Below, in pieces: positions 31,385-35,039 of a stretch of 43,564 nucleotides of DNA. Position 1 is the stretch's first letter. Every line of letters starts with the position of its first letter. Under the pieces are notes generated by a model. That model was not told the DNA's origin. It worked only from the letters and a program-made list of their open reading frames with translations, and made no database searches. The stretch is from assembly GCA_937899995.1 (NCBI GenBank), contig CALCCK010000014.1, forward strand, positions 1-43,564. The letters run 5' to 3'. Source of the stretch: an uncultured Gammaproteobacteria bacterium (lineage in GTDB: Bacteria; Pseudomonadota; Gammaproteobacteria; PS1; Pseudothioglobaceae). Made by a program: the position numbers and the translations under genes.

Positions 31385-31726
31385 TTAGTTTTTCGTCACC
31401 TGTGTAAATAAGTCCAGTAGTTCAGCAGATAATTCTGGATTTTTAGTCGGCTTAGCGTTTCTGGCCATAACTACAAATCCCCAACTATCTAAGTGTGGTT
31501 GCGCCACTCTAAAGGTTTCTCTTGCAACACGTTTGAATCGGTTTCTATCGACAGCCAAACGCGTTACTTTCTTTGAGATTGCTAAGCCTAAACGCGGCCT
31601 AGAGTCTTGAATAGGTTTTGCAATGATTTGCCAGTATTTACCCTTGGCCCGCTTACCACCTTTAAAAATATGGGTGTATTCGCTGGGTTTTAGGATTTTG
31701 GCTTCACGTGTCAGCCGTAGAGACAT
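31385..31726 (-). CDS. rnpA: Ribonuclease P protein component
   Basis: RLGLAISKKVTRLAVDRNRFKRVARETFR; between rpmH and yidD. Confidence 0.95.
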   Translation of the reverse strand: MSLRLTREAKILKPSEYTHIFKGGKRAKGKYWQIIAKPIQDSRPRLGLAISKKVTRLAVDRNRFKRVARETFRVAQPHLDSWGFVVMARNAKPTKNPELSAELLDLFTQVTKN

Positions 31727-31869
31727 TAAGCTGCAGCTAAGCGCTTACGTCCTTTTCTTCTACGAGCATTGATTACTGCACGGCCAGACTTAGTGCTCAT
31801 TCTTGATCTAAAGCCATGAGTACGTCTGCGTTTTAAAACACTGGGTTGGAAGGTTCTTTTCTGTTTCAT
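31726..31869 (-). CDS. rpmH: 50S ribosomal protein L34
   Basis: [47 protein letters not shown], 47 aa; too short for the ORF track; TAATG overlap with rnpA. Confidence 0.97.
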
Positions 31870-31967
31870 AATAGAATATCAGCCGATAAAATCTTGCAAT
31901 TTTACCATAAATCACAATACACCTTGTAAATAACTATGATAATTTATAATAATGTCAATACGCTGAA

Positions 31968-32120
31968 ATGGGTTTAGAAGTGCCTTTATCAGGCAATAAC
32001 GTACCTATTTATACAAAAGATGTAGACAACACCCCCCTTGTGCTATTAAAATGCTTGAGTTGTGAAGCCATGAGTATTGATAAAATACTTGAAAAAAGTG
32101 GATTAATCCCCAAATATTAG
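31968..32120 (+). pseudogene. Probable dprA/smf C-terminal relic (50-aa ORF)
   Basis: MGLEVPLSGNNVPIYTKDVDNTPLVLLKCLSCEAMSIDKILEKSGLIPKY*: the last ~30 aa resemble the start of the DprA C-terminal winged-helix; directly upstream of smg, matching the common dprA-smg order. Confidence 0.55.
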
Positions 32121-32181
32121 AACATGCGAACAGAGACAAAGGTTAGCGACTCTGGCTATCTATTAACTAAGTGAGATTTTT

Positions 32182-32670
32182 ATGACACACAATATTCTTG
32201 ATGTACTAACTTATATGTTTGATTATCTGTTTGAAGAAGCAGAACAAGACTCGTCTCATGAAATTGATGATACTGCTTTAAAGGCTCATCTTTCAGATGC
32301 TGGTTTTGAAACAGTTCGTATTGAAAAAGCGCTTAGCTGGCTAGAAAATATTGCCACTTTGCAAGATGGCAGTGTTAAGCCGTTTGCTAATACGCATGGT
32401 GGCATGCGTATTTATAGCGACGCGGAAAAACTAAAGCTTGATGTCAAGTCTCGTGGCTTTTTATTGTTCATGGAAAACATGGGTCAACTAGATGCCAATC
32501 AACGTGAAATAATCATTGATCAAATTATGTCATTGGGTGATTCATCGGTGCCTTTAGATGATTTAAAGTGGGTGGTGATGATGGTACTGGGCAACAGCAA
32601 TGATGAAGAGATTTCAGTACAATGGCTAGAATCAATTGTGTTTCTTGACGATAACCATACTGTTCAATAA
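32182..32670 (+). CDS. smg: Smg family protein (DUF494)
   Basis: ILDVLTYMFDYLFEEAEQ...LKAHLSDAGFETVRIEKALSWLENI; adjacent to topA. Confidence 0.88.
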   Translation: MTHNILDVLTYMFDYLFEEAEQDSSHEIDDTALKAHLSDAGFETVRIEKALSWLENIATLQDGSVKPFANTHGGMRIYSDAEKLKLDVKSRGFLLFMENMGQLDANQREIIIDQIMSLGDSSVPLDDLKWVVMMVLGNSNDEEISVQWLESIVFLDDNHTVQ

Positions 32671-35039
32671 TGGCAAAAAACCTTGTCATTGTTGAGTCCC
32701 CTGCAAAAGCCAAAACAATTGAAAAATTCTTAGGCAAAGACTATACCGTTAAGTCAAGTATTGGTCATATTCGTGACATGCCTAAAAAAGACATGGGCAT
32801 TGACCTTGAGAATAATTTCCAACCAACCTATGTGGTTAGTGCCGATAAGAAAAAGGTTGTAGCCGATCTTAGAAAATCAGTTAAAACAGCAGATCAAGTT
32901 TATCTCGCGACTGATGAGGACCGCGAAGGAGAGGCGATCGCTTGGCATTTGCTAGAGACATTAAATTTACCTAAAGATACACCACGCATTGTTTTTCATG
33001 AGATTACCAAGAGTGCCATTACTAAGGCAATCACTTCACCAAGAATAGTAGATTACCAGGTGGTTGATGCACAACAAGCTAGACGTGTGATTGATCGTTT
33101 AGTGGGTTTTGAAATCTCACCTATTTTATGGCGCAAGATTTCAGGTGCGCGTTCTGCAGGTCGAGTGCAATCGCCAGTAGTGCGTTTGGTAGTAGAAAGA
33201 GAAAGAGAAATTACCAATCACACGACGCAAAGCACCTATAAAGTTAAGGCTGAGCTAGTGAATGACAACGGTGAAGTTGTAGACGTAAAGCTTAGTAAAG
33301 ATTTTGACTCTAAAGACGAAGCGGTTGTCTTTACTACAGCCCTATTAGATGCCAAATTAAGTGTTTCTGCGATTGAAAAGAAGCCTTCTAAACGCTCTCC
33401 TAAGCCACCATTTATTACCTCTACTTTACAACAAGAAGCCTCGCAAAAACTCGGTTTTTCGGTTAAACAAACCATGACCCTGGCACAAGGCTTGTATCGA
33501 GAAGGCTCAATTACTTACATGAGAACCGATTCATTTACTCTTTCAGAAACAGCCATTGAGGCAGCTGGAGAGGTGATTAAAAAAACCCATGGTTCAGACT
33601 ATCATCAAGTTAGACGCTATAAGACTAAAGACGCTAGCGCACAAGAAGCGCATGAAGCAATTCGACCAACAGATTTAACCAAGTCAGAAATTTATGGTTT
33701 AGAGGATCAGGCTGCTAAACTTTATACACTTATTTATAAACGTACATTAGCCTCACAAATGAGTGATGCAAAATTACAAAGAACACAGATTAAGACCAAC
33801 ATTTCTAATCGCGACGAAACCTTTGTGGCTAACGGTGAGATATTGGTATTTCCAGGCTTTTTAAGTGTTTATGATTACCTATCATCAGACGATAAATTAC
33901 TGCCTGACTTAAGTCAAGGCGACGAATTAACCTTAGCCAGTTTTGCAGCGAGAGAAAGTTTTTCACGCGCTAAGCCACGCTACACTGAAGCTTCTTTGGT
34001 TAAAAAAATTGAAGAAATGGGCATTGGTCGTCCCTCTACTTTTGCCACCATGGTGTCAACTGTACAAGACAGAAACTATGTTACTAAAGAAACACGTGAA
34101 GGTGTAGAACGCACTTATCAACTCATTGAAATTACTGATGGAAAAGTTGTCGAATCAAAGCCAGTTGAAACAATAGGCGTTGAGAAAAACAAACTATTCC
34201 CAACCAATGTGGCGTATTTGTTGAATGATTTTTTAGTGAAAAATTTCAGTAATATTATTGATTATGAATTTACTGCCAAATTAGAAAGTGATTTTGACAC
34301 CATTGCCAATCAAGGTGTGGCTTGGCAAGGTATTGTTAAAAATTTCTATGAGCCCTTCCATGCTCAAATTGAACTAGCCAATGATATCTCTAGGGAAGAA
34401 ACTCACGGTATGCGTGAGCTTGGTACTGATCCTAAGAGTGGTAAACCCGTCAGTGTACGTTTTGGACGCTATGGCGCCTTTGCACAAATTGGCCATAAAG
34501 ATGACGAAGACAAACCAACTTTCGCCTCCCTTAGAGGCTCTCTTGATATTGAAACTATCAACCTTGATGAGGCGTTAGAGTTATTCAACATGCCACGTAC
34601 GGTAGGTGAAACAGACGACTTTGGTGTTATAAAAGCCAATTATGGCCGTTTCGGCCCCTACATACAATATGGTAAGAAATATGTTTCTTTGAAAGAAGAT
34701 ATTCCTGAAGAAGTTACGCTTGAAAAAGCATTGGAATTGATTGTCGCTAAAGAAAAATTTGATGCTGAACGTATAATAAAAACCTTTGATGACAGTGAAA
34801 TCCAGGTGCTTAATGGTCGCTTCGGCCCGTATATCTGGAATGGTAAGAAGCGTGGTAAAGGCCAAAAGAATATCACAGTCTCTAAATTGTTTGGCGACAA
34901 AGAGCCGAGCGAACTCACACTAGAAGAGTGTAAAAAAGCCATTTCTGGAAAAATCAAATCTAAGACTGCTAAGCGTAAAAAGAAAGCCACGAAAAAAGCA
35001 GTTAAAAAGACCGCCAAGAAAACCACGAAAAAATCATAG
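32670..35039 (+). CDS. topA: DNA topoisomerase I lacking zinc fingers, with Lys-rich C-terminal tail
   Basis: MAKNLVIVESPAKAKTIEKFLG; TDEDREGEAIAWHL; GSITYMRTDS; repeated GRFGPYI motifs; tail KIKSKTAKRKKKATKKAVKKTAKKTTKKS. Confidence 0.96.
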   Translation: MAKNLVIVESPAKAKTIEKFLGKDYTVKSSIGHIRDMPKKDMGIDLENNFQPTYVVSADKKKVVADLRKSVKTADQVYLATDEDREGEAIAWHLLETLNLPKDTPRIVFHEITKSAITKAITSPRIVDYQVVDAQQARRVIDRLVGFEISPILWRKISGARSAGRVQSPVVRLVVEREREITNHTTQSTYKVKAELVNDNGEVVDVKLSKDFDSKDEAVVFTTALLDAKLSVSAIEKKPSKRSPKPPFITSTLQQEASQKLGFSVKQTMTLAQGLYREGSITYMRTDSFTLSETAIEAAGEVIKKTHGSDYHQVRRYKTKDASAQEAHEAIRPTDLTKSEIYGLEDQAAKLYTLIYKRTLASQMSDAKLQRTQIKTNISNRDETFVANGEILVFPGFLSVYDYLSSDDKLLPDLSQGDELTLASFAARESFSRAKPRYTEASLVKKIEEMGIGRPSTFATMVSTVQDRNYVTKETREGVERTYQLIEITDGKVVESKPVETIGVEKNKLFPTNVAYLLNDFLVKNFSNIIDYEFTAKLESDFDTIANQGVAWQGIVKNFYEPFHAQIELANDISREETHGMRELGTDPKSGKPVSVRFGRYGAFAQIGHKDDEDKPTFASLRGSLDIETINLDEALELFNMPRTVGETDDFGVIKANYGRFGPYIQYGKKYVSLKEDIPEEVTLEKALELIVAKEKFDAERIIKTFDDSEIQVLNGRFGPYIWNGKKRGKGQKNITVSKLFGDKEPSELTLEECKKAISGKIKSKTAKRKKKATKKAVKKTAKKTTKKS

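Follow-up and report, generated by a model that had tools for sequence, protein, structure and literature searches.

The window, a stretch of 43,564 nucleotides that forms contig C14 of a 1.24 Mb genome (99% complete, about 2% contamination, 78 contigs), carries between rpmH and smg a relic of dprA, whose product handles DNA taken up by the cell; the relic is quite probably a recent pseudogene in a lineage that has lost its DNA-uptake set, the 3′ tail of the gene being kept as an internal σ70-type promoter for smg and topA. An in-place internal deletion of 858 bp and some small deletions made the pseudogene, and the source lineage would have given up the uptake set of dprA, comEC and comM. The tail would not be kept as protein; a promoter within it would transcribe smg and the essential topA, and deletions that remove dprA and spare the tail would be the tolerated ones. 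The source genome was examined by targeted searches, and the named relatives in its family comprise bivalve gill symbionts and bacteria of the SUP05/Thioglobus type. The features of the locus, with two further relics in the same genome, are these.

31726..31869, minus strand: rpmH (L34), Pfam Ribosomal_L34 E=1e-21, in the same position in nearly all family loci
31870..31967, no strand: divergent rpmH/dprA intergenic region, aligning collinearly with relatives apart from a gap of 12 nt, its first 83 nt 95% identical to L031
31968..32120, plus strand: dprA relic ORF, running in frame from the native start codon straight into the linker and on through the first half of the winged helix
31971..31976, plus strand: junction of the 858-bp deletion (286 codons, in frame), from alignment to L014, L006 and L031
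32023..32052, plus strand: candidate smg-topA promoter, -35 TAGACA at 32023-32028, 18-nt spacer, -10 TAAAAT at 32047-32052
32089..32096, plus strand: TTGAAAAA, a further conserved element, which encodes Val-Glu-Lys where dprA is intact
32114..32115, plus strand: junction of a 22-nt deletion, from alignment, that frameshifts the winged-helix domain into TAG at 32118
32132..32133, plus strand: junction of a 2-nt deletion, from alignment, with the DprA terminus SGYLLTK and its stop still readable downstream
32182..32670, plus strand: smg (DUF494), intact, DUF494 E=5e-44, 94% identity in relatives
32670..35039, plus strand: topA, intact, its start overlapping the smg stop
G000:C22, locus L175 2546-3072: comEC relic between coaBC and dnaE, the first ~0.5 kb, with stops and frameshifts
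G000:C18, locus L185 1606-2046: comM relic between tsaD and hisA, only codons 1-63 and 383-477 left

The first-pass annotation had taken an ORF of 50 amino acids between rpmH and smg for a probable relic of dprA. The ORF is present as described (31968-32120, plus strand), with the C-terminal end DNTPLVLLKCLSCEAMSIDKILEKSGLIPKY and a premature TAG at 32118-32120. Of the Pfam domains DprA_WH is its sole match (model positions 14-37 of 61), the domain named for the proposed HMM check, but at 12.4 bits (E=0.17) the match falls under the PF17782 cut-off of 22.9 bits; the relic does not hold a complete C-terminal winged helix, the domain being frameshifted and then stopped. A sub-threshold Pfam match is insufficient for identity, which was settled by direct alignment to relatives with intact dprA: the best tblastn match of the ORF is to the gene of L014 (E=3e-21, 79% over 47 aa), and the rpmH-smg interval matches at a blastn E of 7e-67. 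At the level of sequence these alignments establish the ORF as a C-terminal remnant of dprA. Aligning the interval across relatives, as had been suggested, shows a full dprA in the slot and not an unrelated small gene; of the eight other window-genus genomes, seven (G001-G007) have the Rossmann-like core PF02481 and an intact dprA, about 362 codons from its ATG, with rpmH divergent on the left and smg-topA on the right. PF02481, which a functional DprA would carry, has no match anywhere in the 99% complete source genome, and neither a full dprA nor a stray fragment of one was found elsewhere in it. Because the ORF is a dprA remnant and the genome has no intact copy, DprA function is taken to be lost, as the first-pass annotation had supposed, and comEC and comM have gone as well.

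The lesions, mapped with L031 as reference, take in the upstream 12-nt gap and the 858-bp deletion besides the two smaller ones; in relatives the deleted segment is flanked at both ends by the microhomology GATTTA, and the window reads GGTTTA. In the codons that the relic retains there are 10 nonsynonymous changes and 1 synonymous change relative to L031, and in the intact gene of L034 5 and 5, all small numbers; the skew indicates relaxed protein constraint, as expected of a dead gene, while the still high identity to relatives indicates that little time has elapsed since decay began. Syntenic homology to intact orthologues, disabling lesions and relaxed protein constraint together mark a dprA pseudogene.

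The candidate promoter matches the σ70 consensus at 10 of 12 positions, with a spacer inside the 16-18 nt range taken for the hexamers, and its -10 TAAAAT sits inside TATTAAAAT (32044-32052). A 10/12 match stands at the same place in 28 of 34 intact dprA genes, where it outranks nearly all other positions in dprA, and a few Bathymodiolus symbionts have a poor -35 (ACGCACA). A synonymous-constraint scan of 34 intact genes, corrected for genome pair and amino acid, gave for these loci, which share ancestry, a synonymous-codon excess of +0.284 at dprA codons 302-316, the permutation 99.9% level being 0.172; this is constraint beyond coding, of the kind looked for in an internal promoter. The peak recurs in four clades taken separately, within one codon of the same window; the two-genome groups (SUP05/g8 and g3) have no significant peak on their own, groups of two being uninformative. 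In the same scan smg has no comparable peak. Bias from poorly conserved codons that are compared mostly between close relatives was met with a pair-specific expectation, and the peak stayed; an overlapping gene is set aside as the cause since no other frame is consistently open, and so is conserved RNA structure, for which RNAalifold finds nothing and Rfam gives only a sub-threshold chance match. The dprA of Aeromonadales/Shewanella has a synonymous peak at the homologous place, over a different but conserved sequence. The second element, TTGAAAAA, kept in 32 of 35 intact genes and, with one gap allowed, in 16 of 20 relics, has a synonymous excess of 0.3-0.4 at its codons and is not accounted for by a simple promoter. 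Across the family topA also has a weak synonymous-constraint peak (0.148) at codons 330-344, possibly another embedded element.

What is constrained in intact genes is also what tends to survive in broken ones. All 35 aligned intact dprA genes have TATTAAAAT unchanged; of 20 relics 8 have it exactly and others are one base off, and it or its one-base variants persist in Vesicomyosocius relics where little else of dprA aligns. The candidate promoter element is likewise kept in relics of deeply decayed symbionts (for example L051 and L090), and among the dprA-less lineages examined a readable trace of the end of dprA lies beside smg in all but L082/L121 and some Pseudothioglobus. One Pseudothioglobus subclade has lost the -10 TTAAAAT, so that its promoter must have moved or been replaced, and retains GATGTGGATAAT and GGTTGAAAA. 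As a separate observation, GATGTGGATAAT, which contains a DnaA-box-like TGTGGATAA, has been conserved between rpmH and smg in Pseudothioglobus relics (L068, L069, L071-L074, L078, L080 and L084) despite the loss of dprA, column identity being about 91% there and 47% at the fourfold sites of smg; TGTGGATAA as a DnaA box was rejected as the conserved element, for it is a single copy and derives from DVDN codons. A literature search on promoter-retaining pseudogenes turned up nothing on point.

The tail could instead be ordinary pseudogene debris that survives only through the recency of the deletion, with no function keeping it. The decay in the window genome is recent, so that retention there proves little when taken alone, and both the 10 to 1 excess of nonsynonymous change beside the 5 to 5 of L034 and the high remaining identity to relatives are what debris would show. 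Intact dprA genes, however, already have suppressed synonymous change in exactly the same stretch, and old relics (L051, L090, L042, L054 and part of g3) keep parts of the element with the rest gone or scrambled, which makes debris an unlikely account of the tail. Still less probable, to the point of being very doubtful, is that the 50-aa ORF encodes a working small protein descended from the DprA winged helix: the 858-bp deletion is exactly in frame with the native start codon kept, and the rpmH-smg interval of G009 (L113) retains an open, in-frame C-terminal dprA remnant of 127 codons, but the winged helix of the window is frameshifted and cut half way, its codon changes are mostly nonsynonymous, and G008 and most of the other relics have the homologous ORF interrupted.

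Two other uptake genes of the source genome are broken as well. The comEC relic is 82% identical to the gene of G005, the remaining ~80% of the gene being deleted, and it and the comM relic each lie inside collinear flanks; since an internal deletion has disrupted each of dprA, comEC and comM, the DNA-uptake set is read as lost, and with it, judging from these genes, transformation would probably have been lost in the source lineage. An origin of the deletions in misassembly, with dprA intact in the source population, is barely credible: the genome does have 78 contigs and about 2% contamination, but an artefact would have to account for three separate indels at dprA, with no stray dprA fragment elsewhere in the genome, and for independent in-place decay of comEC and comM between collinear flanks. 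Across 83 family genomes dprA and comEC are both intact in 33 and neither is in 41, with dprA alone in nine, and none of the 83 has an intact comEC with dprA missing or broken; the association has a Fisher p of 4e-15 over all 83 genomes and 2e-9 over those at least 90% complete, values uncorrected for relatedness. The existence of dprA-only genomes, and of none with comEC only, suggests that comEC is usually lost first, though draft assemblies may exaggerate the nine exceptions. A tree of smg and TopA needs five changes of dprA state, at least three of them forced by starred branches, and places the window apart from G008, the other dprA-less member of the genus (support 93/95); on its 5′ side the deletion also seems not to be alike in the two relics, although the alignment of G008 there is uncertain. 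No PilT-family ATPase was detected in G001-G007, although dprA is intact in these genomes and comEC and comM mostly are too, so that canonical pilus-driven uptake may already be gone in these relatives. A search of the literature on competence loss in Thioglobus, SUP05 and vesicomyid symbionts found nothing on point.

The first-pass annotation had further proposed a single rearrangement, with its breakpoint between rpmH and smg, that could both have truncated dprA and have parted dnaA from rpmH, moving the boundary of the origin region in the same event. It was right that rpmH lacks an adjacent dnaA here and that it adjoins a truncated dprA, but sequence comparison with intact relatives refutes the rearrangement: rpmH divergently adjoins dprA in nearly every family genome with an intact dprA (order rpmH|dprA-smg-topA), both flanks of the internal deletion are collinear with relatives, and a distance of at least 25 kb to dnaA is seen with intact dprA too. 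The junction, which a breakpoint would lead one to find absent from close relatives, is present throughout the window genus; because the order is family-wide and rpmH beside dprA was not found in the loci examined outside the family, the junction is old and unrelated to the loss of dprA. The dnaA of the source genome, identified by Pfam match, is on contig C42, where it heads an intact block with what we take, by recognition of their sequences, to be dnaN, recF and gyrB, and the upstream neighbour of the block is the same as in G002 and G007. In most closed family genomes, several of them with intact dprA, dnaA is 25-70 kb from dprA/smg/rpmH (with dprA intact, 53 kb in G028, about 25 kb in G029 and 44 kb in G087), G012 being an outlier at about 400 kb. 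The separation of dnaA from rpmH is thus the older, family-wide state, and it and the truncation of dprA were not one event.

Suboperonic promoters for downstream genes can lie in the 3′ part of the upstream coding gene. The candidate within the dprA tail differs from such promoters in general in that the gene which contains it has been lost again and again, and the promoter would outlive that gene. Neisseria meningitidis has the same gene order as the window family: dprA, smg and topA are co-transcribed there, with a predicted promoter within dprA, and a dprA null goes on producing TopA (PMC5817196), the last being as a model with an embedded promoter expects. In Neisseria, though, dprA is intact and the promoter, only predicted, is mid-ORF, whereas the candidate here is near the 3′ end and is recognized by comparative constraint and by its retention in relics. 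Vesicomyid clam symbionts and Pseudothioglobus resemble the window in having lost dprA from the same slot with traces of the 3′ tail left and comEC lost or degraded; their relics differ in deletion ends and degree of decay, and the window genus mostly keeps dprA.

Constraint on the tail, its standing as the best promoter match and its survival in lineages that lost the gene, together with Aeromonadales/Shewanella and Neisseria, give the relic the look of a protected promoter, and a protected promoter inside the dprA tail is well supported by these comparisons. We infer from them that the element would act as a promoter in the cell and that the tail would be kept by selection on the expression of topA. 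It is an evenly balanced matter whether the final ~50 codons of dprA carry an old smg/topA promoter, gammaproteobacterial and perhaps shared with betaproteobacteria, that dictates how dprA is lost, leaving the tail as a regulatory fossil. If the protected-promoter account is true, the end of a gene outlives the gene because a neighbour needs the promoter within it, and an apparently dead ORF of 50 amino acids becomes a test case for why pieces of pseudogenes persist. The repeated joint loss of dprA and comEC in the SUP05/symbiont clade bears, in turn, on how these bacteria lose recombination with outside DNA.
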